This document shows positions 8,616 through 56,193 of a DNA stretch of 64,000 nt, piece after piece. Below the pieces are notes generated by a model that was not told where the DNA came from, did not search any database, and saw nothing but the letters and a program-made list of their open reading frames with translations. The position numbers and the translations under genes were made by a program. Positions within the stretch are counted from its first letter, which is position 1. Each line of letters starts with the position of its first letter. The stretch is from Channallabes apus. Taxonomy: Eukaryota > Chordata > Actinopteri > Siluriformes > Clariidae. The stretch is taken from positions 24,010,074-24,074,073 of the forward strand of contig CM060106.1 of the NCBI GenBank assembly GCA_030522415.1. The letters run 5' to 3'.

Positions 8616-8621
8616 ATATTA

Positions 8622-9144
8622 TACGGAGCCCCCCAGGGGTCATGAGGGAAAAATATCAACAAACAGAGCACGCGGATTAATACATCATGCGCTCGGATTA
8701 ATAAATCATGCCCTCAGAATAATAAACCGAGTGCACGGAATAAAATATCTGTGCGTGCGGATTAATAAACCTTGCGCGCGGAATAATACCACCGTCTGCT
8801 CCGATTAATAAACTTTGAGCACGGAATAATAAACCGAGCGCGCTGATTGGTTTACACGTCTGGATTCGAAGTTATGACCTATCGGACATGAACGGAGAAG
8901 AAGAAGCTCATATCAGCTCAACGACTTTAAGGTATGTCACCAACTTTTAACTTAATATTTAAACATTTAACTTAATTTTAAAGGTTTGTGGATATGTTTG
9001 CATGTTCCACACTTTCATGGAACATTTTATGAGGCTTTCCTGTGCCCCATCTTTTGCTCCAGGCCACGGGCATAGAATAACGCAGCATGCAGGTTTTCAT
9101 TGAAATTTAAATATAGTGTAAGAACACACTGCTTCCCCCGAACA

Positions 9145-9177
<33 letters not shown>

Positions 9178-9652
9178 TATGATATTCTGCGATCTCATTT
9201 TCCAAGTTGGACCTTGGGTATTCGCGCGCCGGCTTCTAGATCCCGATTTGTGGTGGAGAATAAATATTACAATATGAATATTTATAATATGAATATTATT
9301 CGTATTCGGTCAGTAATTTGCAGACGGTCACTAACTCGCGCATTGACGAGGTTCGGTCGCCGGACTCTGATAGCGAATGTCCGCCACAAACCGGAGTATA
9401 GCAGCCGGAGCGCGAATATCCAACGTCTAACTTCATACCAACGTCACCGCGGGCTAGTCCGGTTTTGGTTATACTTCAACATTATGTATGCTGACTGTAA
9501 CAGTACCCAGTTTGTCCTTGTGTTACTCGCAGAAAATGTCACGTCACATATGCGCAGTGAATATTTTACAGTCTGTTTAATACCCCAATCTCACCTATGC
9601 GGTTTTGCGTGGTGGCCGTAAATACGTTTCATGCATCATGTGATAACATTTC
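8622..9652 (+). repeat. left terminal inverted repeat of the 10.5-kb transposon
   Basis: It is nearly identical to the reverse complement of 18085-19160. It carries the nine-copy ~21-bp array at its outer end, an (AC)n tract near 9145-9177 and a CpG-rich inner part. It is about 45 bp shorter than the right copy, the difference lying just after the ctcattttcc near 9200. Confidence 0.92.
8668..8858 (+). repeat. nine subterminal repeats of 21-22 bp (left end)
   Basis: Nine consecutive degenerate units of 21-22 bp share a GCGC(G/T)CGGA(T/A)TAATAAA-like core, starting at 8668, 8689, 8710, 8731, 8753, 8774, 8796, 8817 and 8838. The period is two turns of B-DNA, so equivalent bases face the same side. 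Arrays like this are typical binding sites for a transposon-encoded protein; that role is inferred. Confidence 0.85.
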
Positions 9653-9776
9653 CATCTTTCCACGCGGAAAAACATTAAACATGATGAACATTAACATGAG
9701 AAAGCTCCCGGAACGTCGGGCAGTCACTCGAGGCGGCTCACGGTGCCACACCGAGTCAAACCGTATACAGTAGGTG

Positions 9777-9783
9777 TATAAAG
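9777..9783 (+). promoter_or_regulatory. TATA box candidate for the HECT-like gene
   Basis: TATAAAG lies about 100 bp before the first ATG (9878), just inside the left TIR, and is followed by a G-run and cacagat. Its position fits a core promoter; transcription start is not shown. Confidence 0.5.
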
Positions 9784-9877
9784 GGGGGCACAGATAGATT
9801 GGTCTAATAGATGCATTCTGTCAGACTGACTGAACAGTTCGTGCTTTTTCATAGTGTATTTGCCTTTTTTGGACAGA

Positions 9878-12800
9878 ATGGATCAGGGATTCTTAGATTT
9901 TCTGCAACAACAGCGTGAGTTGGATCAGGGCATCATCTCCGTGTTTGTAAATGAAAAGGTATGTGCATCTCAATTAGAAGGTTTTTGTTTCTATACTATA
10001 GTATTGACTTTTTTATATTGCTCTGTTCCCACATTATACTGTATAAAAGTAGAATAGCATAGTAGTTATAATAGCATAAAAGTAGAAGGAAGGAATTTGG
10101 AGTAGGACATCACATCGTAAACTCTTTATTCTCTTGTAATCTGGATGAAAGTGCACTAGGTATATATGGTATATGGGTTATGTACATGTAAACACCTAAA
10201 ATCCCAGTATCCTGTGTTTATAGTATTTGTGGATATACATAACATTATGCACATGGGTTACATGGCTGACAATTAGCGTTAATACTTTGTCAGTCTTTAA
10301 TCAAATACTACAATATTTAGCATTATAAATATATGTGGCAATTTGAACTATAGCTTAAGTCTATAGTGCCATTTCTTGTGTTTATTGTTATTGTTTATTA
10401 TATACAATAATCCCTCAACTCTCCTCTGCAGATAGACTGTTATGCTGTAAACGGGATGTCAGATGAGCAGCTAATGAAATATGTTCCCAAATTTGGAGAC
10501 AGAATTGCCATTCGACAGTATTGCAGAAGAGAAGTGGCAGCATTTGAAAAGAGTTCCTCGATTGTGTCAAAAGCGACTCAAAGTCTACGAGAAAAAATTC
10601 AACTACGGAGGGCTGGTAAAAGATCTCATTCAGATGATCGTTCTCAAAAATTAGCTGGCAACTTAAATGCCCTCAAAAACAGCCGTACATATCAAATTGG
10701 CTTGTTTGAAGAGGTCGAAGGCTCACTTATTCAAGTCAGAGAAAGAAAAGGAGGTGGAGTCAGACATCTCAAGGCATCGAAGGACACTCCAGTGAGTGAG
10801 CTGTTGAACACTGGCAAAGATCTGTTTTTCCCGCAGGGAAAAAACAAGCTTGGAAATATAAATCAGTTTGAATTTACACTAAGAGACTTCACTGAAGCTG
10901 AGCTGGACTCATCCATGACACTTGGTCAGCTGTACAGTTTGAGAAAAGTGAAACTGCTTAGACTTTATGTGTCATGCAAAAGGATTTTCACGGATGCACA
11001 GGACATAACTGCAAATCAAGTAGATTCACATATAGCTTCATCTCTACACACACACTCAAAAAGCACAGGAATTGTCGTTGATGAGCATGCCAGTGAAGTT
11101 GCTATGTTGACAAGCACTCCCATCAAACTTACCACTGACACTGTAATGGCAAGCACATCCACAACAGACACAAGGTTTCTTTTTATTGATGCTAATGATG
11201 AGAAATTCCCATCACCATTGCATTTAGATGACCATGACCTGCTGCAAGAACAAAACACATCAGTTTCAGTTGATGAGGAGATCCAAATAGGGTACGTTTA
11301 CCTCCCATATGACAATGTTGTCCTGGATGACACTCTTCCAGTGGAGACTGCTGTAGTACAACCACCACCAATAGGACTTCATCATGAAAATAAGGTTGTT
11401 AAACTAAGACTTCGAAGGGGAAACATATTTTATGAACTGAATGCTGCATTTAAGGATGGACAGATAACAGTTGATGACATGCTGCTGGAGATTGAGATGG
11501 TCCTTCCAAATGGCAATGCTGAAAAGGGAGAGGACAATGGTGGGGTCTTGCGTGATGCCTTGAGTGAGTACTGGGAAACATTTATACTAAAATGCACAAC
11601 TGGGAATGTGCTGAAAGTTCCAATGATCAGGCATGATATGAAAGACGAGTGGGAGAATGTGGCCAAAGTGATGGTGTTAGGCTACAACATGGCAAAGTAC
11701 TTTCCTGTGGCCTTGGCTAAGCCCTTTCTTTCTCACTGCCTTCACCAGGAAATCAAGGATGATGAACTGCTTGCTGCATTCCTGGAAACAATTCCAAGTG
11801 AAGATAAGGAGATTGCAGAGCAGGCAATGAGAGATTTTAAATCCATTTTTGGAAAAGAAGAATGGTTTGAATTCCTTGAGGCACATGACATTAAAAGACA
11901 TGTCACGGAGGACAATTTGAGGAGAACTCTGCTTGAAGTTGCACACAAAGAAATGGTGCAAGACCCAGCCTATGTAGCAGAGTGTTGGAGCAATATTCTG
12001 CAGGGACTCCATCTTCCTCCAGGAGGACTAGATGAAGTGATGTCTAATCTCACTCCCACAACCAGGAAGGTTGTAGCAATGTTGCAACATGAAACTCTCA
12101 ACAAACGAGAGTGTCAGATTCTGGATTTCCTTAAAAAATTTATCAGGACCTGTAGTGATGTTCGCCTGAGGAAATTTCTCCGGTTTTGCACAGGTAATGT
12201 TTTTGTTTGTATTTTCGCACAAGTGATATTTTGTAACTAATAATTAAAGATATTACCATAAAAAATGTTCTGGGGAATTGTAATATAATGTACATTTAAA
12301 AAAATCTCTCTAACACCTCCAGATTTTCCTCACTTTTTAACCTCACTTTGCATTTATGCCAACCATTTCTTCCTATACAGTATTTTTTGGGAAACCTGCT
12401 ATACACTGATCAGTCTCCAGGCAATATCAACTTCTCTAAATGTATTCTGTCTAATCATATGCTTGGAGGAAGTGCTCACCTTTTTCCAAAAAGGCAAAAG
12501 GATGGATGTTATATGAAGCTTTTGCCATGATTTTGTGGAAACTCCAGGGCCTTTATTTACTAAGCCTCTCTGAGTAAGAAATCTCTCCTAAGTGGCCAAA
12601 AGAGTCACATCATTTTGGTCCTGCTTTCAGGTGTAGGAGTTTTCAACATTATTAAAACAGGAAATTACTTCTATCCCCACGAAAACTTAGAAGGTGTCCT
12701 AACTGGTTATTGGTTGTGAGGAAATTGTGTTCCTATATATATTATTTTTTTATTATTATTTTTTTTTTTTAAATGATTAATTTTATTTTATTTTTATATA

Positions 12801-14765
12801 TTTTATATATCTGTATTCAATTATTTGACAGTGTACACAAATGTTTTTTGAGCCACACTTCATCACTTCATTACCACGGCGTACCCCCATTTCTCACACT
12901 CCTTTGGGGTATGTGCGGCAAACTGACACATGGTATTGATGCTTTCACAAATTGCCGCCACTTGCTTTTTATCGTTAGAAGTAAGAGTAGGGTGAAATTT
13001 TACCTAAATTATTTCTTTACATTTTACTCCCTCCCTTGCAAGCAAAATGCTCTCATTCTCTCTCCAGTTTCGCTTTCTTTTTGAGGTAATTTTCATCAGA
13101 TTGTGACAGTCTTGCATAGCTGTATTATAGGGCTTTAAACAGTTGTGATTGGAGCAGTCTGATTAGCCTGACATTCTGCATCCGAGTCGCACGTCTATAA
13201 GTTTAGCTTTCAACCAACTGCCACTGATTTCAGCATTTCACTTTTTCACTATTTTAAACAATAAACAAGTCAAACTACAATACCCACTATAACATGCAGC
13301 CTAATTTGCTGCTCTTAAAGAGTGATATCACATGCTTTCAAAGTAGGCTGCGCGTTATAGTGGGTGTTGTAGTTTTTACTGGTTTTTGTAGTTTTAAATG
13401 GTGGAAAAGCGAAATGATGAAATCAACATCAGTTGTGTGAAAGCTTTGTGCTCAACAGACAGTTTAGTTTGCAAAGAAGGGAGTAAAATGTAAAGAAATA
13501 ATGAAAGTAAAATTCTGCCCTACTCTTACCTCTAAAGGTAAAAAGTGAGTAGAGTCAATTTGTGAAAGCCTCAATGCCACCTGTCAGTTTGCTGCATGTA
13601 CCCCTGAGGAGTGTGAAACATGGGAATACACTGTGATAAAGTCCTGCTTATGACAAAGAATGTCAAGAAACAGTTACAGTATGTGTACACTACCTTCAAA
13701 AGTTTGGGGTCACTTTCTAACTCCATGATCATTCCTGGTTTTTATTTCTTTCTACATTGTAAAGGAATGCTGACGATGTCCAAAATATGCAATAATCTCC
13801 TTTGAACAGTTGATATTGAGATGTGTCTGCTACTTCTGCTCTGTAAAGACTTCATAACGACTCTTGCAAAGAAATTTGCAAGTGACCCCAAACTTTTGAA
13901 CAGGAGTGTATATTATGTAATTATGTATATATAGAATATATAAATATAATTGGATTTCTATATTTATAAGGATGCCCTGAACTCAATAAATGCAGCTTGT
14001 TTTTCTTTGATTTCCCATTATATAGTGGGAATGTATGAATCTGCGCATGATCAGCGGTGCTGTAAGAACAGAGTTTAATTTATTATTTCCGACACTGCCG
14101 TCTGTGTCACTGTTTCAAAGCTGCATCTTTGCTGTTACTAAAAAAACAGAGTAGCAGAGACAGCATACAACATGCTCATTAATGGAGCAGTTACATACAC
14201 AACGTTATTGGTTTTAAAACCAATATGTCCAAACATCTTTTATGAGATCCATGTCCGCTCACGTCTCTGCCTGATCCATTTCCTCATGACTCATACGTAC
14301 CTCGGGAACTCTTCTACATTTTGGTGGAGAAAAGCGTGATTTTCTATGTTAAGAATGTTAATGAATTGTTCTTATTCCTACTCCTAAAAGTTTGACCAAA
14401 ATTTTTGAATTTTGGAGCAATTTCATACTTTGAGATGCTTAGTCAATATGCGCCCTGGTTTTGGGCACTTCCCATTAAGAAAACAGTGTGTTCTTATGTG
14501 ACAGTGGAGGTATTGTTTAGGTAGCACAGGTTGTCCTCTGAATTAACAATAATTTTTGCACACCTTTACAGGTGCTGATCTACTTGTATCACAGTCCATC
14601 CATGTGCGCTTCACTGAGCCAAAGAGCACCTTTACCAGAAGCCCCCAGTCACACACATGTGGTTGTGTGTTAGAAGTGCCAAACAACTACGGATCATACC
14701 TTGAGCTTGCTGAAGATTTTACAAGTGTACTTGATGCCAACATGTGGGTAATGGACATTATTTAG
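9878..14765 (+). CDS. transposon-borne SAM-like/HECT-like protein, three exons, 678 aa
   Basis: The exons are 9878-9958, 10432-12193 and 14572-14765, with donors gtatgt and gtaatg and acceptors ctgcag and ttacag. All join in frame. Residues 1-65 resemble a SAM-like helical domain (MSDEQLMKYVPKFGDRIA). Residues about 125-210 form a conserved block (RKGGGVRHLKA, KDLFFPQGKN, LYSLRKVKLLRLY). From about residue 345 it resembles a HECT ubiquitin-ligase domain: the N-lobe word GEDNGGVLRDALSEYWETF is near 390-412, and the C-terminal SHTCGCVLEVP carries the candidate catalytic Cys644. HECT enzymes pass ubiquitin from an E2 to a target through that cysteine. Fish proteins of this type are often labelled G2/M-phase-specific E3 ligase-like. 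The domain is shorter than a full HECT domain, so activity is uncertain. Confidence 0.85.
10432..12193 (+). CDS. exon 2 of the HECT-like gene
   Basis: This long exon of 1,762 nt carries 587 codons plus one base. The frame is open throughout, and the split Gly codon is completed by exon 3. The first eight codons precede the internal ATG at 10456, so the upstream 27-codon exon at 9878-9958 supplies the likely start. Confidence 0.88.
12870..13650. mobile_element. long imperfect palindrome (MITE-like) in intron 2 of the HECT-like gene
   Basis: 12885-13060 pairs with the reverse complement of about 13465-13635. Shared blocks include ttcacactcct, gcaaactgaca, gctttcacaaatt, gtaagagtaggg and atttctttacattttactccc. 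Arms of roughly 170 bp surround a centre with a second inverted pair (cactataacatgcagcct versus aggctgcgcgttatagtg). No coding capacity. The ends are approximate. Confidence 0.7.
13686..13911. mobile_element. short non-autonomous DNA element with ~25-bp TIRs
   Basis: The left end reads tacactaccttcaaaagtttgg and continues ggtcac. The right end is the complement-type agtgaccccaaacttttgaa. Termini of this kind mark a common small fish DNA transposon. About 226 bp, no gene. Confidence 0.65.
14572..14765 (+). CDS. exon 3 of the HECT-like gene: catalytic-cysteine C-lobe
   Basis: It encodes ADLLVSQSIHVRFTEP, then SHTCGCVLEVPNNYGSYLEL, and stops after WVMDII. The TC pair followed by a hydrophobic strand and a Tyr-Ser-Tyr turn is the HECT C-lobe arrangement. 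The acceptor is cctttacag. Confidence 0.85.
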
Positions 14766-16534
14766 AGGTAAGTTTCAGGTGCACAGTACATTTACATTCA
14801 TTCATTATTTTTCCATTTATTCATCTATTTTTCTTTGACCAAGTGTGTTTATGTTCATATGCATTTGCTTTTGTCTTCCCTAGGTTTTAGGACTCCAAAC
14901 ATAATGTTGACAGGGACATCACAATTTTTAGATTAATAAATACTATTGGACTAGTTTAAACATTGGTATGTTAGTGGTGTTTCACAGTATTTGATTTCTT
15001 ATCTAAGTGAAATAAGGTTTACAAATAGTGTTTTTCTTTACTGAATAATTACATTTGGGGAATTTTATTTGATATAAATAAATATATATATTTAGATATA
15101 ATGTTTGATATATTTGATGGAGGGTCTTTCAAATTGAAATTGATGTAGTGCAAAATAAATTTGACCAAATTGCATTAACTTGACAGAATGAGATATAATC
15201 TGACAACATATGGTTTAGGATGGATTATAATTATTTTACGTTCTCACAATTTGGCTAAGATCTGTTCATTAGCTCATTTTATGTTCATAAACCAAAAATA
15301 TGGTTTTCTATTGATGGTTTCAGCTCAAATGATAATATACAGTAATAACACTTTACTTGAACAAGGACAGTTCATTATATATATCACAGTTTATTATACA
15401 ATAATATATTATATTTATATTATAATTATTATATAATAATAAGTGTTACATAAAGTTATAAGCATTCTAGTATTTGGGTTTCAATTATAAACATGTTAGT
15501 ATGAATATTTTATTTTTCTGGATTAGGGTATTTTCACAACATACCTACAGTAAGTATTCCAGAACAAGTAGGAATTTTTTGTCTCTTTACTCTTCAGTTC
15601 AAGTTGTTGTGATAAATACAATGCACTTGTTTTTATGTTGTTTGTTATTCTGAAGTGTTTTACTGAGTTTACTATTTTTGTAGTGAATTCTACATTTCTA
15701 CTGTAAGTAGACATTGGTAATTATTTGAGTAACTCCCAACACTTCAGTGTAGTTATTGATGTTCATGTATCTATGATGTTTAAAAAAAGCTTTTACAGAG
15801 AACATTTGTTATGGGTTATGTTTTATATAAAATTTCTTAAATAAAATGTTTTGTACCGCAAATTACTGTTTGTCTTTTAATAATTTCTATTAGATTTGAA
15901 CATTAATAAAATGCTGTTAAACCTTAAAGGTAAATATGATAACTTAAGCACCTCAATATAAAAACAGTGACCTGCTTTCACACTTAATTCTAATAATTTT
16001 AATGTTGCTTATCAAAGCATAGCACTTGTGAAACATTGTAAAAAAAAAATAATAATAATAATTTTTAGAAACCAAAACCACATTTTTTTTGTTGCCAGGA
16101 TGTGTTGCACTGTATTAGAGATAAAAAGGGGAATTAATCTGATCTAATGTTTATTCCTGTACAAATGCATTCAAAAATATTGATGTCAGCAACTTGACTT
16201 GAAGTTGTAAAAGATTGTCTCCTTTTATCTGAACGGCTTCCTCAGTTTTGAGTAGTGTGGACTCCCAGATGTGGAGTCAGTCTGTCAAAGTCACATGAGT
16301 TAAGATAAGTACAGTATCTGTGGGAAACTGCCTCAGAGGGATGTCAGTACTGATTTTTAAGAGGCTCATCGGTGGTTTTGCAGACTTTATGGCCAAAATA
16401 TTTCTATCTTCGTACCTCTGAAGGATCAATATAACATTTACTTTTAATTTTACATTTACCCAGGAAAGGGAAAAGATAATTTTCCTTGAGACAGTACATT
16501 GTGTGAATGGGGCTGTGTTCATGCATGCCAATCT
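14766..16534. other. AT-rich spacer between the two convergent transposon genes
   Basis: It probably holds both 3' untranslated regions: an aataaa at about 14936 serves +, and several tttatt words, such as near 15838, could serve -. No third gene is recognisable; short frames here are AT-rich noise. Confidence 0.5.
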
Positions 16535-17825
16535 TTATCTTTCAATGTCTAGACGATTTGTTAGTTCTTGTCGTAGGAAAAGGTAGAGGTCCAATGCCAT
16601 GTAAGTGTCCCCAGGAACATGAAGATTATTTTCAGCCATGATGGAGGTGCACAGTGTAAAGACGTCGTTATCACAAACAATGTCGGATCGGTGGACACAC
16701 TCATTTTCATAATGGTTGACTTCATCCTCTGGAATCTGGCATAAGTAGTCCTGTGTGTTGTATAGTTCCGGTAATAAATACATGACTTCAGGGCGTCCAT
16801 GGGGAACTCTCTGGTTTCGTGACGGACGAATAAGGTGACTATTCCATGACTCTTTGACAGCATCCAATTCAGTCTGAAGACAGAAAGAGGAGAGCACAAA
16901 TAAATTAAAACAGAAGTATACGCAGAATAAATAAATATTTAAATATCTATTCAATTATTTTATAATGAAGATTTTTTGTGTGAGAATGACTTACTTGTAT
17001 GATACCAAGAAAGCAGAAGATGATAAGATTTTTATCTAGGAATTCCCCATTGAAAACACCTTCATTTTTGAGGCTATGGAGTTGCTCCAGCCAAAACTCC
17101 ACACACTCTTTGCGAAGAATTCCCCACCAACTTTCAATTCTTTGGTTACTTGTGCTTCGCCCATAGATGAAACTCCTTTCACCACTTTGTAAGTCAACAT
17201 CATTTTGACGCAAGGACCGCTGAATGTCTCGAATAGAGCTGTTCTCGGTTCCCATGTCTGCTCTTAAAGTGCGAGGACAACCACCAGTTTCTCTTACCGT
17301 CTCGAGAAAATATCCACCAACAACTTTGGGATCACTGTTTGTGTTGTATGCATTGAGCCACAAAATCATCCTTGAGAATCCATCTATGGCCCCGTTTATA
17401 CATATGCCAAAAGGCTTTAACTTGTCATATGAATCAACATGCCATACAAAATTTGGCCCTTTCGCGAAGTAAGCTCTTCTGTTGAGTCTCCTCTGCCTTC
17501 TCAAGTCTCTGCCTACTGGATCCAGACTTGAAAGAATTAAACGAACATCTTCTTTTCGAACATGTAATCCCTTGTCTTTACATTTACTGTACATCCACCG
17601 GTAGCCATGCAGGGCCCCTGAGCCCTCCAGTTCTTCTTTTATGAACTGAATAACATTTTCAAGGTTGTCAAAGTGTTTACGACGAAAGCATCCATTCTTC
17701 TTGAGAAATCGCTTCAGTGTTTTCAGACTCACAATAATTCCATGTCTTACACTTAGAATGTGAAGAATGTCTGTATATTTAAGACCCAAAAGAAAATAAA
17801 GTTCAATTAGCTGTGATTTATCCAT
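16535..17825 (-). CDS. DDE integrase-type transposase, two exons, 389 aa
   Basis: Exon 1 runs 17825 to 16995 (277 codons) and exon 2 runs 16873 to 16535, joined by caa|gtaagt and cttcag|act. Residues 1-50 look like a helix-turn-helix (LGLKYTDILHIL, then LKTLKRFLKKNGCFRRK). Residues about 120-240 form an RNase H-fold integrase core: WHVDSYDKLKPFG (Asp131), IDGFSRMILWL, LRADMGTEN (Asp190) and NQRIESWWGILRKE (Glu231), spaced D-58-D-40-E. Exon 2 begins TELDAVKESWNSHLIRPSRN. It would cut and join the element's ends in the nucleus. The start is the first ATG after the upstream non-ATG reading frame. All catalytic residues are present. Confidence 0.9.
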
Positions 17826-18084
17826 GCCAGGGAATATCCAGGCAAGGCAGTAACTGTTCACAAGTCAGTGAAGTACCAGAAGGAAAGAATGATTTATGGT
17901 GCAAAACAATTATTTGCAATTGGAATACTCTGCTCCAAGGTCAGCCACCTGTCAACATAAGATATAAAGAAGTTGATTTTGTCAAGTCCTTAATTATAGA
18001 TATAATTCAAGGAATACTATGCATGTCTACACTGACCAAAGCGTCATAACTGCCCATTCATTCATGTATTTGGATGTCCTACAT
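17826..18084 (-). other. 5' flank of the integrase gene
   Basis: Between the integrase ATG and the right TIR. On - it contains gttgacag, a possible untranslated-exon acceptor, and AT-rich words, but no convincing TATA box. A promoter for this gene is expected here or in the TIR. Confidence 0.35.
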
Positions 18085-18604
18085 GAAATGTTATCACATG
18101 ATGCATGAAACGTATTTACGGCCACCACGCAAAACCGCACAGGTGTGATTGGGGTATTAAACAGACTGTAAAATATATGCGCATATGTGACGTGACATTT
18201 TCTGCGAGTAACACAAGGACAAACTGGGTACTGTTACAGTCAGCATACATAATGTTGAAGTATAACCAAAACCGGACTAGCCCGCGGTGACGTTGGTATG
18301 AAGTTAGACGTTGGATATTCGCGCTCCGGCTGCTATACTCCGGTTTGTGGCGGACATTCGCTATCAGAGTCCGGCGACCAAACCTCGTCAATGCGCGAGT
18401 TAGTGACCGTCTGCAAATTACTGACCGAATACGAATAATATTCATATTATAAATATTCATATTGTAATATTTATTCTCCACCACAAATCGGGATCTAGAA
18501 GCCGGCGCGCGAATACCCAAGGTCCAACTTTAAACCAACTTCAGCGCGGTCCGGAACCGGTAGAATAAACAGCCTTATGGAAAATGAGATCGCAGAATAT
18601 CATA

Positions 18605-18637
<33 letters not shown>

Positions 18638-19160
18638 TGTTCGGGGGAAGCAGTGTGTTCTTACACTATATTTAAATTTCAATGAAAACCTGCATGCTGC
18701 GTTATTCTATGCCCGTGGCCTGGAGCAAAAGATGGGGCACAGGAAAGCCTCATAAAATGTTCCATGAAAGTGTGGAACATGCAAACATATCCACAAACCT
18801 TTAAAATTAAGTTAAATGTTTAAATATTAAGTTAAAAGTTGGTGACATACCTTAAAGTCGTTGAGCTGATATGAGCTTCTTCTTCTCCGTTCATGTCCGA
18901 TAGGTCATAACTTCGAATCCAGACGTGTAAACCAATCAGCGCGCTCGGTTTATTATTCCGTGCTCAAAGTTTATTAATCGGAGCAGACGGTGGTATTATT
19001 CCGCGCGCAAGGTTTATTAATCCGCACGCACAGATATTTTATTCCGTGCACTCGGTTTATTATTCTGAGGGCATGATTTATTAATCCGAGCGCATGATGT
19101 ATTAATCCGCGTGCTCTGTTTGTTGATATTTTTCCCTCATGACCCCTGGGGGGCTCCGTA
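18085..19160 (-). repeat. right terminal inverted repeat of the 10.5-kb transposon
   Basis: Reverse-complement partner of 8622-9652. It keeps an extra block of about 45 bp at roughly 18530-18577, with the repeated word aagttgg on both sides of the difference, suggesting a short deletion in the left end. The inner limit is where homology stops at gaaatgttatcacatgatg. Confidence 0.92.
18924..19114 (-). repeat. nine subterminal repeats of 21-22 bp (right end)
   Basis: Mirror copy of the left array at the same distance (46 bp) from the element terminus, with no length change between the two ends over this interval. Confidence 0.85.
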
Positions 19161-19166
19161 ATATTA

Positions 19167-22121: not shown

Positions 22122-25100
22122 CTATTTATAAAATGCTTGGTTAAATAAATAGGTTTTTAGCCTAGACTTAAACACTGAGACTGTGTCTGAGTCCCGAACA
22201 CTATTTGGAAGACTATTCCATAATTTTGGGGCTTTGTAAGAAAAAGCTCTGCCCCCAGCTGTAGTTTTCATAATACGCGGTACTGATAAGCAGCCTGCAT
22301 CCTTTGACCGAAGTAGGCGTGGCGGATCGTAAGACACTAGCAGTTCGCTCAGATACTGCGGCGCGAGACCATTTAATGCCTTATATGTCAAGAGTAGTAT
22401 TTTAAAATCAATGCGAAATTTCACAGGGAGCCAATGCAGTGAAGATAGGATAGGGGTGATGTGCTCATATCTTCTGGTTCTAGTGAGGACTCTCGCTGCT
22501 GCATTTTGGACTAGCTGAAGCTTGTTTATGCACCTAACTGAACAACCAGACAGTAAGGCATTACAATAGTCCAACCTAGAAGTGATAAAAGCATGAACTA
22601 GTTTTTCTGCATCATTTAGCGACAATATATTTCTTATTTTGGCGATATTTCTAAGGTGAAAGAATGCTATCCTGGTGATATTATCTACATGAGCTTCAAA
22701 TGAAAGGCTGGAATCTATAATCACGCCGAGGTCTTTTACTGTTGCACTTGGCGGAACGGAAAGGCCATCTAAAGTTACGGTGTGATCTAAGATTTTACTT
22801 CTAGCTGTATGCGGTCCTATGACTAGAACTTCTGTCTTATCCGGATTAAGCAGAAGGAAGTTAATTAGCATCCAATTTCTTATGTCCTGAACACATTGCT
22901 CAACTTTAGTAAGATGGTTTTTCTCATCAGGTTTTGTAGAGACGTATAGCTGTGTGTCGTCAGCATAACAATGAAAACTAATACCATGCTTACGGATTAT
23001 GTTGCCCAGAGGAAGCATGTAAAGGGAAAAAAGCAGTGGGCCTAAAACTGAACCCTGCGGAACGCCAAACTCCACTAGAGAACATGCAGAATAATCACCA
23101 TTTAAGTCTACATACTGATAACGATCGGTCAAATAGGATCTGAGCCAGGAGAGGGCTGTACCCTTAATTCCTACTAAATTTTCTAATCTGTGAAGAAGAA
23201 TAGCATGATCAATGGTATCAAACGCTGCACTGAGGTCGAGTAATACAAGCATAGTTACACAACCCTGATCAGAGGCCAATAGGAGGTCATTTACTACTTT
23301 AACGAGTGCTGTTTCTGTGCTGTGATGAGGCCTAAATCCTGACTGATACAGTTCATGTATGCGATTTCTATGTAGATATGAGCATAGCTGCTCCGCTACT
23401 ATCTTTTCCAGAATCTTAGAGATAAAGGGGAGGTTTGATATTGGCCTGTAATTGGACAGCTGACAGGGGTCAAGGTCAGGTTTCTTAATTATTGGTTTAA
23501 TAACTGCTACTTTAAAAGATTTTGGAACATAACCAATGCTGAGTGAGGAATTAATTATTCTCAACATCGGTTCTGTTATTACTGGTACTATCTGTTTAAG
23601 AAAATGTGTCGGTATAGGATCTAATATACAGGTTGATGAATTTGCAGAAGAGATGAGTGAAATTAGTTCATTCTCTTCAAGAGGAGTAAAGTATTCTAGG
23701 TTTGAATCTGACATGGCTAGGTTAACATCAGTATCAATTACATTGTTTGGTTTCAAAGCCTCAATTTTATGCCTGATATTTACAATTTTATTATTAAAAA
23801 AGTTCATGAAGTCCTCACTATTGCATGATGTTGTTGTGGAGATTTCTGTAGTGGTCTTATTTCTGGTTAATTTGGCTACGGTATTAAATAAAAATCTAGG
23901 ATTATTTTTATTTTCTTCTATAAGAGTGGAGAGATACGTTGATCTAGCTACACTAAGAGCTTTCCTATAGTTCAGGATGCTCTCTTTCCATGCTATTTGA
24001 AATACCAACAATTTAGTTTGACGCCATTTACGCTCTAATTTCCGAGCAGTCTGTTTTAAAGTGCGCGTGTGATCGTTATACCAGGGAGCGAGTTTCTTAT
24101 CTCTAATAATTTTTCTTTTAGCTGGAGCTACATTATCTAAGGTACAACGAAGTGTCGACTCTAAATATTCAGTCGCCTGATCGAGTTCTGTGGGGTCAGA
24201 CGGTGGCCTAATCGAAGTTGGTAACTCTGGGAGATTACTGATAAAACTCTGTGTGGTAGTTGATGTGAATGTACGTTTAATACGGTAGCGCGGTGCTGTG
24301 CGTACATTATCACTGTGACACACTTGAATGGAGACAAGATAGTGATCTGAGATAATTTCAGACAGTGGAATTGTGAATACATTTCTTATAATTAATCCGA
24401 AGAATATTACTAAATCTAAAGTGTGACCTGCTTTATGAGTGGGTCCTACTACACACTGATTTACACCTACGGAGTCCAGTATGGATATAAATGCTGTTCT
24501 CAGAGGGTCTTCTGGATTCTCAAAATGAATGTTAAAATCTCCAGCAATTAACACTTTGTCTACAGAAATGACCAGGTCTGAGATGAAATCTGCAAATTCA
24601 CTAAGAAATTCAGAATACGGCCCTGGAGGTCTGTAAATTATAATTAGTGGAATCGACTGAGCTGATTTAATATACTTAAATACACTTATGTTACTATAGA
24701 GAATTTCAAATGAGTTAAATTTGTGTCGGTGTTTTTGTACGATAGACAGATTATCATTATGAATAACTGCGACGCCTCCTCCTCTACCAGTTAACCGAGG
24801 CTGGTGTATGTAGCTGTATCCAGGAGGACTAGCTTCATTTAGAGCTACATACTCGTCCTGTTTAACCCATGTTTCAGTTAAACAGAGTATATCAAACGCC
24901 TGATCTGTGATAATTTCATTAACAATAACTGCTTTTGATGTGAGAGATCTAATATTTAACAATCCTAGCTTCAGATCAGAGGTGCCGGCTGCGCATTCAG
25001 TATGATCGGAGTTTGTGGACTTTATGTTAATTAGATTATTGAAACAGACTTTCTGGGTCTTTCTACATTTTTGCTTAGATCGGGGAACAGACACAGTCTC

Positions 25101-25190
25101 AATATGGTGAACCCTGAGTGACGACTCTATGCAGCTAGCAGACGGTTGGTTTAGCCTGTCTGTCTGCTCCCTGGCCTGGGCTCTGGATTG
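22122..25190 (-). CDS. LINE ORF2: endonuclease and reverse transcriptase
   Basis: The open frame starts directly after the ORF1 TGA and runs over 1,000 codons to a stop at 22122. AP-type endonuclease motifs come first ([40 protein letters not shown]). Reverse transcriptase follows ([66 protein letters not shown]). It would nick target DNA and copy LINE RNA in place. The first in-frame ATG is far inside, after the endonuclease (EDFMNFF). A GTG at 25094 is the only start-like codon near the 5' end, so expression by readthrough or another non-AUG route is implied. Confidence 0.9.
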
Positions 25191-26096
25191 TCACCGATTA
25201 ACTAGACCTCTACTGAGACTATGAGCTATACTACAGGAAATGAGAGCAGCACCTTCCCGAGTGGGATGGACACCGTCCCGCCCTAACAGGCCAGCTTTGC
25301 CCTCAAAGGTCTTCCAATTGTCTATGTAGCCCACATTATTTTTGGAGCACCACCTGGACATCCAGCGGTTCAGCGACCATAACCTGCTGTAAGCTATGTC
25401 GCCACGTCTCATTGGGATGGGACCAGAGCATACTACTTCATCGGACATCGCCTTCGCTAATTTAAACACCTCTGTAAAGTTACTCTTACTAACCTCTGAC
25501 TGACGAAGGCGTATATCGTTAGCTCCAGCATGTACCACTATCTTAGAGAACCTGTGCTGTCCTAGAGCCCTAAGATTACCTGCTATGTCCGGTGCTCTGG
25601 CTCCCGGGATACACCTAACCACTGCCGCTGGCGCCCCTAAAGGTCTAGCTAATGTCACGTGTCTCAGTATAGAGTCTCCTATAACCAGAGCTCTTTCAGG
25701 TTTCTCAGCGGGTGCAGCACTGAGGAGAGCAAACCTGTTGGACACGTGACGCGCAGAGGAGGTGTGCTCCGGTGGGCTAGCCTTAGCGTTAGCTTTGGCT
25801 GAACGAGTATGCCGCCGAGTCGTCACCCACTCGCCCCGCTGTGAGGGCTCTAATGCCGGAGTCGGGGGCTGTTTATCTCCGCCTGTGGCACCCAGACTGT
25901 CCGCTACAGGAATAACGCTGCTCTCACACTCTCTAACCCTCTCTAAAGTCTGGATGCGCTCCTCTAACGCTGATATCTTCTCCGTCAGAGTGCTCACTAA
26001 CACACACCTATCACAAATAAAGTTATCACTAATGACGGAGGAAGAATGTCTAAACATCCTGCACTCTACACACTGAACAAGCTGAACGGTAGACAT
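25191..26096 (-). CDS. LINE ORF1: zinc-knuckle-like, coiled coil, SGNH esterase, 301 aa
   Basis: It begins at an ATG with a CxxC...CxxC pair (Cys9, Cys12, Cys28, Cys31) and a predicted coiled coil at about 33-58 (ISALEERIQTLERV). After a basic linker comes an SGNH-hydrolase domain: GDS at 140-142 with Ser142 as nucleophile, GAND at 191-194 and DGVH at 274-277 supplying Asp and His. Esterase-type ORF1 proteins are known from CR1/L2-clade LINEs, where they are thought to act in the RNA-protein particle. The ORF ends in a single TGA at 25193-25191, and ORF2 continues in the same frame. Confidence 0.88.
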   Translation of the reverse strand: MSTVQLVQCVECRMFRHSSSVISDNFICDRCVLVSTLTEKISALEERIQTLERVRECESSVIPVADSLGATGGDKQPPTPALEPSQRGEWVTTRRHTRSAKANAKASPPEHTSSARHVSNRFALLSAAPAEKPERALVIGDSILRHVTLARPLGAPAAVVRCIPGARAPDIAGNLRALGQHRFSKIVVHAGANDIRLRQSEVSKSNFTEVFKLAKAMSDEVVCSGPIPMRRGDIAYSRLWSLNRWMSRWCSKNNVGYIDNWKTFEGKAGLLGRDGVHPTREGAALISCSIAHSLSRGLVNR

Positions 26097-26180
26097 GATA
26101 ACGTACCTCTGTGTCGGAGTTTTAGTTGTTTAGTTGAGGAAACTCAGTGCTCTGAGACTGAAATTAAATTGGCTGTTAAT

Positions 26181-42514: not shown

Positions 42515-43675
42515 CTGTGCCACAGGAAGTAAATTGAGAATGGGAATCAGCACCTACATTAATTAATTTTAATTAACTGATTTTAAAGTAGGGTCAAGGT
42601 ACCAAAATGTCTGAAACCAAAAGAATATTTTAGTACAAGTAATCGTATGGCGCAAGGCAGTTTTCTGATACATCTAAACACCACTTGCAATATAAGCAAC
42701 TTATACTGACTTGGAAGACTGAAAATAGGTAGAACACACCAGTTCAAAGACAAAGATTAAAGTGTGATTGTAGGCATACTTTAAAAGCTACTTTTGCACA
42801 TAAATAGGTTCACGAAGGTATGAATATTTGTGCACCAAAGGCATTTTTACAACACCACACAACACATTGGTTTTGTTTCTTGGATGTTATCTCAATATGT
42901 CCCTTGTAGCTGTATTAAAATATGTTGGAAACTGTCTATAGCTAAACTTTACTTAAAAGTAAAGTTTAAGCTGATAACGAGATAAGGATGTGACCTTGGC
43001 TGAAGGCATTTTAAACTGGAACACTGGCCTAAGATTTTGGATAGTTACTAACTAGAGATTGATACAGATCAATAGATATTGAATACTTTATGCTAATACT
43101 CAATAGTCAAATCATCAGTTTTTTGTAGTTTCTACCAGTTGTTTGTTTTTTGAGGTTTCTCCCTTTTGGCTTCTGTGTCTATTCATGCAACTTCCTTTCT
43201 CTCTTTTTTTCTTCACGAAACATGTTAATTATCTTATTCTGTTCTTTCTAACAGTACATGATGCAATGTGTTTGTCTGAAAACACAAATACTCTGTCTAT
43301 CCAGTGAAGAAGCCAGAGAGAACATTCTGACATATCACATGTGCTGTGTGCATGCATTATGGATATGTGTGTCTTGTTCCTCTCTCCCGGGTCTGCAGGC
43401 ATGTAAGCACATTGAGACACACTGGTAAGTAAATTGAGGCACGTTAGACACTTAAAGCAATTCTTCCATCATTTTGTAAGTGTATTAGTGTGCTTTGGGT
43501 CATTCTCTTTTTGTATGATGAAGTGTATTTTCTGTGAATTGGCAAACAGAGAATCTGTATTCATTCTGCTGCTCTTTCATCATCAATAAATTACCGATTA
43601 CTGAGCTGTTCCAGAAGCAGCCATGCAAGCCTAAGCTATGACAGTAACTGTGCTTAACCAATAAGATCATCTGTT
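42515..43675. other. start of the long 5' acp2 intron
   Basis: I searched on - for the expected preceding acid phosphatase exons (RHGxRxP, GQLTxxG) and found none. A short inverted pair, taaactttacttaaaagtaaagttta, lies near 42942-42969. Confidence 0.45.
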
Positions 43676-43679
43676 TAGT

Positions 43680-44846
43680 AAGAGTAACTTTACAGAGGTG
43701 TTTAATTTAGCAAAGGCGATGTCCGATGAAGTAGTATGCTCTGGTCCCATCCCTATTCGATGTGGCGACATAGCTTACAGCAGGTTGTGGTCGCTGAACC
43801 GCTGGATGTTCAGGTGGTGCTCCGAAAATAATGTGGGCTACATAGACAATTGGAAGACCTTTGAGAGCAAAGCTGGCCTGTTAGGGCAGGACGGTGTCCA
43901 TCCCACTCGGGAAGGTGCTGCTCTCATTTCTTGTAGTATAGCGCATAGTCTCAGAAGAGGTCTAGTTATTTCGTTGACAATCCAGAGCCCAGGCAAGAGG
44001 CAGACAAACAGGCTAAACCAACCATCTGCTAGCTGCATAGAGTTGTCACTCAGGGTTCACTACATTGAGACTGTGTCTGTTCCCCAAGGTAAGCAAAAAT
44101 ATAGAAAGACTCAGTCTGTTTTATGCTGCAGAAATCTACACAACAACATACAGTAGTGAGGACTTCATGAACTTTTTCAGTAACAAAATCGTAAATTTTG
44201 GGCAAAAAAAAAATCCGTTTTTGAAACCAGACAATCTAAGTTATACTGATGATAAACTAACCACACCACATCAGAAATTAATACTTTACTCCCCTTGAAG
44301 AGAACGAACTAATTTCTTCTTCAAAATCGTCAACTGTGTATTAGATCCTATACCGACACATTTTCTCAAGCAGATAGTACCAGCAATAACAAAACCCCTG
44401 TTGAAAATAATTAACTTTTCACTCAGCAGTATGTTCCCAAATCCTTTAAATTAGCAGTTATTAAACTGCTAATTAAGAAACCTGACCTTGACCCTTTACA
44501 GGCCGATATCAAACCTCCCCTTTATCGCTAAGATTATGGAAAGATGGTAGCACATCAACTATGTTCATATCTACATAGGAAAGGCATAAACGAACCGTAT
44601 CAGTCAGGATTTAGGCCTCATCACAGCACAGAGACAGCACTTGTTAAAGTAGTAAATGACCTCCTATTGGCCTCTGATCAGGGTTGCGTCACTATACTTG
44701 TGTTACTCGACCTCAGTGCAGCCTTTGACACTACTGATCATAGTATTCTTCACAGATTAGAAAATGTAGTAGGAATTAAGTGAACGGACCTCTCGTGACT
44801 CAGATGGTATTTGACTGATTGTTATCAGTTTGTAGATTTAAATGGT
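43680..44846 (+). pseudogene. internally deleted copy of the esterase-ORF1 LINE
   Basis: It starts at the SKSNFTEVF equivalent of ORF1 (FNLAKAMSDEVVCSGPIPIR), continues through DGVHPT and passes the ORF1/ORF2 boundary. It then jumps from the first ORF2 residues to [14 protein letters not shown], losing the endonuclease, and ends in RT near LENVVGIK. Frameshifts are present. It belongs to the same family as 21111-26180, opposite orientation, and is dead. At the boundary this copy reads through without a stop because of a small length change. Confidence 0.85.
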
Positions 44847-47845: not shown

Positions 47846-48341
47846 GGATTAAAGTGCCTCGCATAGCTATTGCCCGGCCCCGAGGGATGAGAGGGGGGGG
47901 GGGGGGGGAGACAACATCCCAGGTCCGATAAGTCATGCCTCTCACATCTGGAAAAGTTTGCCAGAACCGTAGGATTCTCGGGAAGAAAAAAGTAGTTACT
48001 ACAACCCAACAATAAGAGTGTGACTATACCTGTATTAGTCTCAAGTCATACACAAGTTAATTTTAAGGAAAGTTAAGGAAGAGAATCATTAGGTGAATTA
48101 GGACTGCAAATATGGTGTTCTCCAGAAGGGGTGTATGTTGAACATAAATTCCTGAAGCACAATTACCCTGTCAGACTTTCACTGTACGATGATGTATGAC
48201 CCATCACAACACATCATTATAGGCCGGCAAGGAGCAGCTATCAGTGTAGAGGAGTGTGATTTTGTAAAAAGGTGGTTCAATGTAACTGATTCTGTTCTTC
48301 AGGTGACATTGTATGTACTGTAGTATAGCAGCTCATAGGAT
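47846..48341 (+). pseudogene. ERV gag-pol junction debris
   Basis: It includes a G tract at 47893-47908 (a likely assembly-sensitive site) and decayed sequence that should correspond to protease and the start of reverse transcriptase. No readable protease motif. Confidence 0.4.
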
Positions 48342-50880
48342 TTATGACCAATAGTGAGGAAAAGCTGAAGAAGTCCGGTGGGACTCAACCATAAACCTGT
48401 TGATTTTCATTCTGCAGATAAAACCTGCGTAAAAATCTTGTGTGGTAATAAATTGATTCGTACTTCTTAAAGAAGTTGTAGTTAGCCACATGTCACAAAC
48501 ACAAATGGCATCAGCATCTGAAATCGACTGTGGGAAATTAGCTATATAGGCAAATGGATAGTCAAGTCCCATCTGAATTATAGTCTAAACATGATACAGA
48601 TGTAGGCCTACTTAAATCAGCCAGCCAACTATAAGTACAACGTAAACCAGATGTAGAACCGCCCAGAGTAAGACAATATGCTTTACGACCTGAGGCAAAA
48701 GCGGGTATATAGAACACTATTGAAGGCCTTGTAAAAGCATCTGTGCTAAAACAGACCAGTTGTTGCAATACTCCTATTTTTCCCGGTGATTAAGCCAGGT
48801 ACAAATAAATGGCATCATGTGCATAATTTGCATGCAGTTACTAGTAAAACAGGAAAGTATCCAGCAGAAGTTCCAAATCCACACACACTGCTGACTAATG
48901 TCCCTCCCTAAGTCAAATATTTTATTGTAATATTTGTTCAAGCCTTCTTCAGTGTTCAAATGGCAGAAAAGAGTAACTACTGCATTTATTTGCATTTACA
49001 AGTGCAAGTTGACAAAATAGATACCAAAAATGCCACGGTGGTTCAAACATTCACTGTATATATTCAATCAGAGGTGGAAGCTGGTTTAGGAGGTTAAAGG
49101 ATAGAAGATAGCCTGGGTCAGCATATGGGTGACGGTTTAATATGATTATCATCATTAGAAAGATGCCAGAATGATTCCATTAAGGTACACCGTAAGCTAG
49201 TAAGGAGGTCATAAAGTGTCATAAACTAAACTACAATACTGTAAGCCTCGAGTTAAATTGTTAAGGTGACTAATTTCACATGATACAATAGCCATAGCGC
49301 CTACTCAATTAGAAGGCATAAGTAAGGCACCAGTGTCACAGCCTGATAAACAGTGATGACCTTTCTAGGGTTAACAGGTTTCATGCTGACTGGAGTAAGG
49401 AATATGCAGGAAAAAACAGCTCCACTAAGAGAGATAATAATGAGAAAAGAAGAACTGCAAGATCTAAGTGCTCCCTTAAAATAGAACACAGATATACTGT
49501 TAGCATTTGAATCCATCAAAAAGAAATGCAGACTGCACCTACTTTAGGTATACAGTACCTGATTATAGCAATCCGTTCTATCGGTACGTAGTGAACCAAG
49601 CTGATGGATCTACCTCAGCTATACTGATGCAGGAAACTTGCAGTGATAGGAAAAACCAGTCCCTAGCTTACTACAGCACTAAGCTAGAAAATATAATTCA
49701 AGGTGACCCAACATGCTACCAATAGGGTTTTGTAGTTGTACATTATGCATATAGAACAGCATCTTCATTGACAACATGTTACCGATAGATTGTATAAATT
49801 GATAAAAACAAGGGGAAGGTGTTCTAACCCAAGCTCGCCTCCAAACATATTCTTCACTGCTCACATATCCAACATTAATATAAAGCGATGTGACACAGTT
49901 AATCCAGCTAACTTAATCACTTAAACCTATAAAGGAGTGACTCATAGTTTTGTGGCGAACTCATTGGCATTTACTAGGTTACGACCTGATCTTGAATCTA
50001 AGCCTATAGCTGAAGCGGAAGTGACTTATTTTGTTGATGGATCTAGTTTAGAGACCAGGTAGAAAGTAACACAGGGTATTCAGTAGTGATGAAGGATGGA
50101 GAAGATTTTAAACCTATCCTATCTCAGCATTGTACACAACCGTGTTCTGCTCAGTTAGCTGAGTTGAAATCGCTCACCGCTGCTTGTCAATTAGCCAAAG
50201 GACTAGTGGCAAATATTTTTACAGATTCAGCCTATTCCATGGTGTTTGTCATCTGGTTGGAACCGTATGGAAGCAAAGGTTTAAAAAGCATGAAGGAACT
50301 CCCATTCAAAGTGCTGAACGGATAAGTAAACTAATGTCTGCTCTGATGCTACCAAGATGATTGACTTTCATTAAATGTCAGACCCGTAAAAAAGGGAAAT
50401 GACTGTGTTGCTAAAGGTAACAGCATGGCAGATTTAGAAATGAAGCGTGCATCAAAATGGCAACTAGCTGTGCAAGCGCCCATAGTCCTTATAGAACCAC
50501 AGCCTCAGTAAGAGGATATCATTTGTACTCAACATCAAGCAGGTCCGTACGAGCGCTCGATGTGGCTCCAGAGGGGAGCGCATAAGGACGCACAGGGTAT
50601 TTGGTGTCCACATGAAGGTCTGATTATAGCACCCATAGCACTGGTGAATATTTCTGGTTTAAATGCTCATGGACTGGGCCATTGTGCAAGAAGACAGGTT
50701 GTGAGAAACATCAGGCAACATGAGTATTGGTGTTTATATCTGCATGCTATGGTTGAAGAGTTCCTAGCTTCATGGGAGATATGTGCTATGCGTAATGTCA
50801 GGAAGGAAACAGCGACACCTATAAGCTATACACCGGTACCAGAATGACCATTTAAAGGGCACCTACGGTGCTACATGGAC
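48342..50880 (+). pseudogene. ERV pol tandem unit 1 (RT, RNase H, integrase N-terminus)
   Basis: In order on +: RT remains, an RT connection/RNase H segment at about 49507-49725 (YYSTKL), the RNase H start TYFVDGSS near 50020-50050, RNase H at 50086-50325 (CSAQLAELKSL, IFTDSAY), and an integrase zinc-finger-like stretch at 50560-50847. Several stops and frameshifts break every domain. All four units share the same main breaks, so the segment was dead before it multiplied. Unit 1 lacks a 20-bp block present in units 2 and 3. Confidence 0.8.
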
Positions 50881-53438
50881 TTATGACCAATAGTGAGGAA
50901 AAGCTGAAGAAGTCTGGTGGGACTCAACCATAAACCTGTTGATTTTCATTCTGCAGATAAAACCTGCGTAAAAATCTTGTGTGGTAATAAATTGATTCGT
51001 ACTTCTTAAAAAAGTTGTAGTTAGCCACAAGTCACAAACACAAATGGCATCAGCATCTGAAATCGACTGTGGGAAATTAGCTATATAGGCAAATGGATAG
51101 TCAAGTCCCATCTGAATTATAGTCTAAACATGATACAGATGTAGGCCTACTTAAATCAGCCAGCCAACTATAAGTACAACGTAAACCAGATGTAGAACCG
51201 CCCAGAGTAAGACAATATGCTTTACGACCTGAGGCAAAAGCGGGTATATAGAACACTATTGAAGGCCTTGTAAAAGCATCTGTGCTAAAACAGACCAGTT
51301 GTTGCAATACTCCTATTTTTCCCGGTGATTAAGCCAGGTACAAATAAATGGCATCATGTGCATAATTTGCATGCAGTTACTAGTAAAACAGGAAAGTATC
51401 CAGCAGAAGTTCCAAATCCACACACACTGCTGACTAATGTCCCTCCCTAAGTCAAATATTTTATTGTAATATTTGTTCAAGCCTTCTTCAGTGTTCAAAT
51501 GGCAGAAAAGAGTAACTACTGCATTTATTTGCATTTACAAGTGCAAGTTGACAAAAAATAGATACCAAAAATGCCACGGTGGTTCAAACATTCACTGTAT
51601 ATATTCAATCAGAGGTGGAAGCTGATTTAGGAGGTTAAAGGATAGAAGATAGCCTGGGTCAGCATATGGGTGACGGTTTAATATGATTATCATCATTAGA
51701 AACATGCCAGAATGATTCCATTAAGGTACACCGTAAGCTAGTAAGGAGGTCATAAAGTGTCATAAACTAAACTACAATACTGTAAGCCTCGAGTTAAATT
51801 GTTAAGGTGACTAATTTCACATGATACAATAGCCATAGCGCCTACTCAATTAGAAGGCATAAGTAAGGCACCAGTGTCACAGCCTGATAAACAGTGATGA
51901 CCTTTCTAGGGTTAACAGGTTTCCACTGTATGTTGTCCTATTCATGCTGACTGGAGTAAGGAATATGCAGGAAAAAACAGCTCCACTAAGGGAGATAATA
52001 ATGAGAAAAGAAGAACTGCAAGATCTAAGTGCTCCCTTAAAATAGAACACAGATATACTGTTAGCATTTGAATCCATCAAAAAGAAATGCAGACTGCACC
52101 TACTTTAGGTATACAGTACCTGATTATAGCAATCCGTTCTATCGGTATGTAGTGAACCAAGCTGATGGATCTACCTCAGCTATACTGATGCAGGAAACTT
52201 GCAGTGATAGGAAAAACCAGTCCCTAGCTTACTACAGCACTAAGCTAGATAATATAACTCAAGGTGACCCAACATGCTACCAACAGGGTTTATAGTTGTA
52301 CATTATGCATATAGAACAGCATCTTCATTGACAACAGGTTACCGATAGATTGTATAAATTGATAAAAACAAGGGGAAGGTGTTCTAACCCAAGCTCGCCT
52401 CCAAACATATTCTTCACTGCTCACATATCCAACATTAATATAAAGCGATGTGACACAGTTAATCCAGCTAACTTAATCACTTAAACCTATAAAGGAGTGA
52501 CTAAGTTTTGTGGCGAACTCATTGGCATTTACTAGGTTACGACCTGATCTTGAATCTAAGCCTATAGCTGAAGCGGAAGTGACTTAATTTGTTGATGGAG
52601 CTAGTTTAGAGACCAGGTAGAAAGTCACACAGGGTATTCAGTAGTGATGAAGGATGGAGAAGATTTTAAACCTATCCTATCTCAGCATTGTACACAACCG
52701 TGTTCTGCTCAGTTAGCTGAGTTGAAATCGCTCACCGCTGCTTGTCAATTAGCCAAAGGTCTAGTGGCAAATATTTTTACAGATTCAGCCTATTCCATGG
52801 TGTTTGTCATCTGGTTGGAACCGTATGGAAGCAAAGGTTTAAAAAGCATGAAGGAACTCCCATTCAAAGTGCTGAACGGATAAGTAAACTAATGTCTGCT
52901 CTGATGCTACCAAGATGATTGACTTTTAATGAATGTCAGACCCGTAAAAAAGGGAAATGACTGTGTTGCTAAAGGTAACAACATGGCAGATTTAGAAATG
53001 AAGCGTGCATCAAAATGGCAACTAGCTGTGCAAGCGCCCATAGTCCTTATAGAACCACAGCCTCAGTAAGAGGATATCATTTGTACTCAACATCAAGCAG
53101 GTCCGTACGAGCGCTCGATGTGGCTCCAGAGGGGAGCGCATAAGGACGCACAGGGTATTTGGTGTCCACATGAAGGTCTGATTATAGCACCCACAGCACT
53201 GGTGAATATTTCTGGTTTAAATGCTCATGGACTGGGCCATTGTGCAAGAAGACAGGTTGTGAGAAAAATCAGGCAACATGAGTATTGGTCTTTATATCTG
53301 CATGCTATGGTTGAAGAGTTCCTAGCTTCATGGGAGATATGTGCTATGCGTAATGTCAGGAAGGAAACAGCGACACCTATAAGCTATACACCGGTACCAG
53401 AATGACCATTTAAAGGGCACCTACGGTGCTACATGGAC
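50881..53438 (+). pseudogene. ERV pol tandem unit 2
   Basis: Head-to-tail repeat of unit 1 with very few differences. The junction fuses the integrase fragment (ctacatggac) to the RT start (ttatgaccaatag). It has the 20-bp block ccactgtatgttgtcctatt near 51923 and the site gacTTAAtttg near 52583. Confidence 0.9.
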
Positions 53439-55993: not shown

Positions 55994-56193
55994 TTATGAC
56001 CAATAGTGAGGAAAAGCTGAAGAAGTCTGGTGGGACTCAACCATAAACCTGTTGATTTTCATTCTGCAGATAAAACCTGCGTAAAAATCTTGTGTGGTAA
56101 TAAATTGATTCGTACTTCTTAAAGAAGTTGTAGTTAGCCACAAGTCACAAACACAAATGGCATCAGCATCTGAAATCGACTGTGGGAAATTAG

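Follow-up and report, generated by a model that had tools for sequence, protein, structure and literature searches.

IS3EU elements, as described in the accessible parts of the papers on them, have TA..TA termini (TAYGG..CCRTA), a 6-bp target site duplication (TSD) and an integrase-like DDE transposase without an HHCC finger (PMC10045372, PMC12730594), and their fungal companion genes encode an alpha-kinase and a TET/JBP dioxygenase (PMC12730594, PMC10045372). In all of the fungal TET-bearing families that are described, the TET gene lies between the transposase and alpha-kinase genes, and the latter two are oppositely oriented (Kojima 2025, PMC12730594). GingerRoot is placed in the same lineage as IS3EU (bootstrap 99, PMC10045372). 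Ginger1 elements possess an H2C2 finger, and it was from OTU or Ulp1 protease domains in such elements that Bao et al. 2010 argued that ubiquitin/SUMO systems take part in transposition (PMC2836005). The accessible text of PMC12730594 makes no mention of ubiquitin or HECT, and neither is named in that of PMC10045372 (Kojima and Bao 2023). We found no description in the open-licence literature of a HECT or ubiquitin ligase with IS3EU or another transposon, although Repbase/Dfam entries may well include one; a review of HECT ligases lacks the string "transpos-" (PMC2837046), and the accessible part of a coelacanth paper holds nothing relevant (PMC4255032).

We analyzed a 64,000-nucleotide stretch of Channallabes apus DNA (the window), which contains a transposon with an integrase gene and a HECT-like gene. 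Its features are as follows.

8616-8621, unstranded: ATATTA, left copy of the target duplication
8622-19160: whole transposon, ~10.5 kb
8622-9652, plus strand: left terminal inverted repeat (TIR), terminus TACGGAGCCCCCCAGGGG
8673-8841, plus strand: left subterminal array of about eight 21-bp repeats
9777-9782, plus strand: TATAAA motif, ~100 bp 5' of the HECT-like ATG
9878-9958, plus strand: HECT-like exon 1, start of the SAM-like domain
10432-12193, plus strand: HECT-like exon 2, remainder of the SAM-like domain, beta-rich domain with GGG motif, disordered linker, HECT N-lobe and start of the C-lobe
12194-14571, plus strand: HECT-like intron 2
14572-14765, plus strand: HECT-like exon 3, catalytic part at the end of the C-lobe, stop codon at 14763-14765
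14935-14940, plus strand: AATAAA after the HECT-like gene
16150-16155, minus strand: AATAAA after the integrase gene
16873-16535, minus strand: integrase exon 2
17825-16995, minus strand: integrase exon 1, with D131, D190 and E231
18085-19160, minus strand: right TIR
18939-19111, minus strand: right subterminal array of 21-bp repeats
19161-19166, unstranded: ATATTA, right copy of the target duplication

The termini, TACGGAG..CTCCGTA, fit both the TA..TA and TAYGG..CCRTA patterns. Allowing up to three mismatches, the 18-bp terminus matches twice in the window, at 8622-8639 on the plus strand and 19143-19160 on the minus strand, against 0.02 matches expected. The two TIRs are identical in 1024 of 1028 aligned columns, besides one 48-bp and one 3-bp gap. 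It is the left TIR that is without the 48 bp, at ~9204, and among three copies compared this gap is found in the window copy only. Both TIRs also contain a palindromic sequence (9204-9433, mirrored at 18354-18549), with the 48-bp gap at its edge on the left only. As context for the ATATTA duplication, two random 6-mers from the window agree by chance with a probability of 0.0005. The 21-bp repeats just inside each end are degenerate, number approximately eight per end, and are possible candidates for transposase-binding sites.

The integrase gene encodes a predicted protein of 389 residues from two exons, in which the DDE triad reads D131-58-D190-40-E231 (codons at approximately 17433-17435, 17256-17258 and 17133-17135). 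The protein matches PF24764 and its predicted structure is intasome/IstA-like, while an HHCC pattern is absent from residues 1-110, as judged by eye. A PDB sequence search with the integrase alone returned no match at E 1, and a search with an integrase profile returned weak matches only, the best of which (E 0.056) is not an integrase. The HECT-like gene encodes a predicted protein of 678 residues from three exons; its second intron contains a 769-bp palindromic element (12871-13639) and a MITE (~13686-13910), which is presumably Tc1-like. Annotated fish proteins P0003 (60% identical) and P0109 (71%) cover 100% of the query, with the small exons among the aligned parts; both predicted gene models agree with annotated fish relatives over their whole length.

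The original prediction, made by reading the sequence, had described matching ends, TIRs of ~1 kb, a perfect ATATTA duplication, a D-58-D-40-E integrase and two convergent spliced genes with open frames. The ends, TIRs and duplication are all in place, the triad is confirmed in the 389-residue translation, and the three proposed splice pairs fit the reading frames, with relatives aligning end to end. Its assignment to IS3EU is also supported, by the 6-bp TSD, the TAYGG..CCRTA ends and an integrase-type DDE transposase without the HHCC finger, as published for that group. Relative to IS3EU, the fish element differs in its ~1-kb TIRs and 10.5-kb length. GingerRoot, compared by its description in PMC10045372, shares the 6-bp TSD and mostly TA..TA ends. 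Ginger1 membership is contradicted by the 6-bp TSD, compared to the 4-bp TSDs of Ginger1, and by the absence of an H2C2 finger, as judged by eye.

Next, we considered copies of the same family in the 1.16-Gb assembly that contains the window. Copy A (C1:26426899-26437480) and copy B (C1:50106781-50117363) are full length and differ from the window copy at 4 and 2 of the 1762 bases of HECT exon 2, respectively. Internal stops are absent from both genes in all three copies. The original prediction had left room for other copies to be without the HECT-like gene; the gene is present in each of the three full-length copies compared. Perfect 6-bp duplications flank three of the four copies with both ends read, including ATAGTT twice at copy B and GATAAC twice at a copy at C1:51108555, whereas the flanks of copy A are unlike and form no target duplication. 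Eight near-complete HECT exon-2 matches belong to the window family: five are uninterrupted (window, A, B, C28 and C19), a single stop interrupts each of two more, and the eighth is split. In another copy the sequence at one right end is CTCCGCA. The near-identical full-length copies, open frames and kept duplications indicate that the 10.5-kb unit has moved recently, carrying both genes together.

Insertion of the HECT gene as a separate element was considered and rejected. Its two flanks share no inverted match longer than 10 nt, where shuffled sequence gives 0-13, and in other families the gene likewise lies within the element's ends and has an unchanged orientation. The 18-bp terminus was also rejected as a means of counting copies, since its 516 + 547 genome matches (control 0) belong mostly to another repeat, as judged from the matches inspected, and so are uninformative on copy number. 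In two sets of inspected sites, 8 of 8 (L002-L009) and 18 of 20 (L014-L033) lie in this other repeat, with the flank TAAAAACCTGAACC or nearly so; of the two exceptions, L030 belongs to the window family and L027 is of a third kind. The other repeat, perhaps present in hundreds of copies, shares the 18-bp IS3EU end and has similar GCGCGCGGATTAATA motifs. At 26 of the 28 inspected places this end follows the same flank, TAAAAACCTG or nearly so, and is fixed inside a larger repeat rather than placed at varied sites.

Both proteins were then searched against the genome, counts from such searches being lower bounds. At least 110 integrase and at least 73 HECT exon matches resolved into at least 63 integrase loci and at least 39 HECT loci. 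Of the 39 HECT loci, 32 have an integrase locus no more than 20 kb away, where random placement gives 0.1, and all 32 pairs are convergent; the other 7 have no integrase match nearby. In most pairs the integrase is 89-99%, 73-74%, 56-59% or 50-53% identical to that of the window (best exon of the locus), with single pairs at 40% and 68%. The HECT gene is found between IS3EU-type ends in three families, with perfect 6-bp TSDs in two. In the 73-74% family, two copies with TACGGAG termini have TIRs that measure 534 and 561 bp and lie between the perfect duplications CTTTTT and CAATTC, and one copy of the 58% family has the same type of ends and a duplication matching at 5 of 6 positions.

The original prediction had cast the HECT-like protein as the fixed companion of the transposase. 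It is a frequent partner, but "fixed" is too strong, as no HECT match lies near 31 of the 63 integrase loci, most of these 31 being partial matches to the query. HECT matches were present in 17 of 20 stretches of 9.9 kb taken 3' of integrase loci; the remaining three (L042-L044, partial loci of the window's own family at 87-91% identity) had none. Across these loci, the HECT gene is thus not seen beside every relative. Five of the integrase loci with no nearby HECT match have frames of 303-309 codons (C21:24880644, C9:4234221, C23:16960116, C24:118216 and C16:36644451), and 12 HECT queries gave no match at E 1 in 14.3 kb around one of them. This lineage (C9:4229000-4243300, L054-L055, and four sister loci) is 48-50% identical to the window integrase, and the one member that was read has a CxxC-type N-terminus. 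It is possibly a one-gene IS3EU family or a host gene.

In other species, HECT and integrase genes were paired by a shared contig or by near-consecutive LOC numbers (P0003/P0109). Such numbers generally follow gene order. Only a 7,328-bp contig proves nearness by its length, and the other pairs show a shared contig; five pairs were matched by exactly equal lengths of the longest contig, and two more (P0317/P0142 and P0231/P0165) were recognized by eye. We compared distance matrices for eight pairs, including that of the window and leaving out P0041/P0210. The HECT and integrase pairwise distances correlate with r of 0.78, a value reached by 2 of 40,320 permutations, and the five closest pairs have the same unrooted order in both trees. 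The two genes have been inherited together over several element families. The Dunckerocampus pair is incongruent, its integrase lying near cichlid copies (0.22-0.25) and its HECT protein being distant (0.66-0.68), thus HECT genes may be swapped.

We propose that this is, probably, a recently mobile and autonomous two-gene transposon of IS3EU type, whose HECT ligase aids it by attaching ubiquitin to a protein that is encountered in the course of transposing. The integrase-like DDE transposase would bind the ends, probably at the 21-bp subterminal repeats, and would cut and insert the element, producing the 6-bp duplication. The convergent second gene would give rise to a HECT E3 ligase with N-terminal SAM-like and beta-rich domains, which as an active enzyme would pass ubiquitin through Cys644 to some protein encountered during transposition, to the benefit of the element. 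We judge host chromatin-silencing or DNA-repair factors, recruited via the N-terminal domains, to be the likeliest class of target, with the transposase itself second. That the HECT protein is so often present in diverged families suggests that the element benefits from it, and the retention of both genes by related transposons in the same genome suggests that ubiquitin tagging helps such elements to spread. A broader reading, which we hold more tentatively, is that a clade of animal DNA transposons has a second core gene, for a HECT ligase of its own, and directs this ligase at host silencing or repair proteins.

Alternatively, the ligase may mainly limit its own transposase, ubiquitinating the integrase to lower its level or to clear the ends after strand transfer. 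The correlated distances would fit a partner that must recognize its own transposase, and the convergent genes belong to one unit; however, the correlation also follows from simple co-inheritance, and both the long-frame integrase lineage lacking a HECT match and the incongruent Dunckerocampus pair speak against this reading, which we regard as unlikely.

The preferred reading, of an active ligase that aids the element, draws on the predicted structure of the HECT-like protein, which forms a complete two-lobed HECT fold. In structural comparison Cys644 (codon 14658-14660, within HTCGC in exon 3) aligns with the HTC of TOM1 and HUWE1, and the model bears out the HECT-like region and TC catalytic-cysteine motif that had been read from the sequence. 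The two-lobed fold, the HTC cysteine and the GG-x-R motif are common to UBR5, HUWE1, TOM1 and E6AP, with ~11-21% identity in the structural alignments shown. Unlike these ligases, the protein is transposon-borne and has N-terminal SAM-like and beta-rich parts. The HECT profile is matched by 41 of 45 relatives at E 0.1 or better, and the relative P0004 scores 25.3 bits with Pfam HECT, above the cut-off of 23.9. The window protein itself scores 21.5 bits, below this cut-off, and its N-lobe has diverged, as might be expected of a HECT-fold protein that has lost its ligase activity and serves transposition as a scaffold or DNA-bound adaptor. We find this improbable given the full two-lobed fold of the model, the cysteine in 84 of the 85 sequences that reach the Cys644 column (of 109) and the widely kept N-lobe motif residues (D395 in 105, G398 in 106, V399 in 98 and R401 in 108 of 109).

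At the N-terminus, residues 1-64 of the P0004 model are mostly helical, with block pLDDT of 94-97 up to residue 60. Weak SAM profile matches at E 0.1 or better occur among the 45 relatives (SAM_2 in 2, SAM_3 in 2 and SAM_1 in 1). An N-terminal profile gave 10 PDB matches at E 1, including ANKS4B (0.027) and tankyrase-1 (0.37 and 0.79); the top match is to a chain named E8 (0.00044), and neither this chain nor some of the other matches are named as SAM proteins.

Relatives of the HECT protein are present in many teleosts, gar, acorn worm, crinoid, sea star, sea cucumber, molluscs, an annelid and a weevil. Three scans of virus contigs revealed no relatives. Among prokaryote genomes, a single contig in a Cycloclasticus sponge-symbiont MAG (L001) has an integrase relative, at 43% identity, with no HECT match at E 1 from 12 HECT queries; this contig is probably sponge host DNA. 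When the window family is compared with three copies of the 73-74% family, the HECT dN is ~0.29 and synonymous changes are saturated, a divergence that we read as pointing to constraint. All HECT changes inside the young family are nonsynonymous (4:0, 2:0 and 2:0), and they are too few for selection to be demonstrated. Although DNA transposons do capture host genes and these young changes would suit a useless passenger, a host HECT gene caught up by accident, such an origin is highly implausible considering the between-family constraint, the span of relatives from fish and a hemichordate to echinoderms, molluscs, an annelid and a weevil, and the several diverged families that each carry their own homologue in the same orientation, inside TIRs in the three with ends read.

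Comparison with the known systems, from the accessible parts of their descriptions, indicates both likeness and difference. Ginger1 elements with OTU or Ulp1 domains likewise combine an integrase-like transposase with the ubiquitin/SUMO system (PMC2836005), but there the enzyme forms a fusion with the transposase and takes ubiquitin or SUMO off, whereas the HECT-like enzyme has a gene of its own and is of a ubiquitin-attaching type. Transposons encoding ubiquitin/SUMO-removing enzymes are thus known, and the present element is predicted to encode a ligase instead. If the proposal is correct, the HECT ligase would act as a writer, the counterpart to the OTU/Ulp1 erasers that other transposons encode. 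Where an alpha-kinase and a TET/JBP dioxygenase are the reported companions in fungal IS3EU, the fish element has the HECT gene, which lies opposite the transposase gene, as does the second enzyme gene of the fungal TET-bearing elements; by analogy, the IS3EU superfamily may tend to carry an enzyme on the opposite strand as its second gene. The element would then form part of a wider pairing of IS3EU with an opposite-strand signalling enzyme, a HECT ligase in animals and an alpha-kinase in fungi. Whether DNA transposons direct the ubiquitin system of the host, and at which protein, is an old question that becomes addressable, and since the copies are young, with open frames and defined ends, the role of the ligase is open to a cell assay. 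Our analysis further suggests that many of the fish proteins annotated as uncharacterized or HECT domain-containing come from transposons and are not host ligases.

Finally, the window holds other repeats. A non-LTR retrotransposon (22122-26129) has a 1,022-codon endonuclease-RT frame, preceded by a frame that encodes a GDSL-esterase domain, and a second non-LTR fragment lies at 43665-44156. A tandem array (48331-61503), with no Rfam match at gathering score, comprises about four 2.55-kb units that are ~98-99% identical, one of them split by a piggyBac insertion of 2,763 bp (57880-60650). The insertion has TTAA on both sides, CCCTGG..CCAGGG ends and an open 593-residue transposase frame (PF13843, 1.1e-73), and a sister unit of the array has the single TTAA site.
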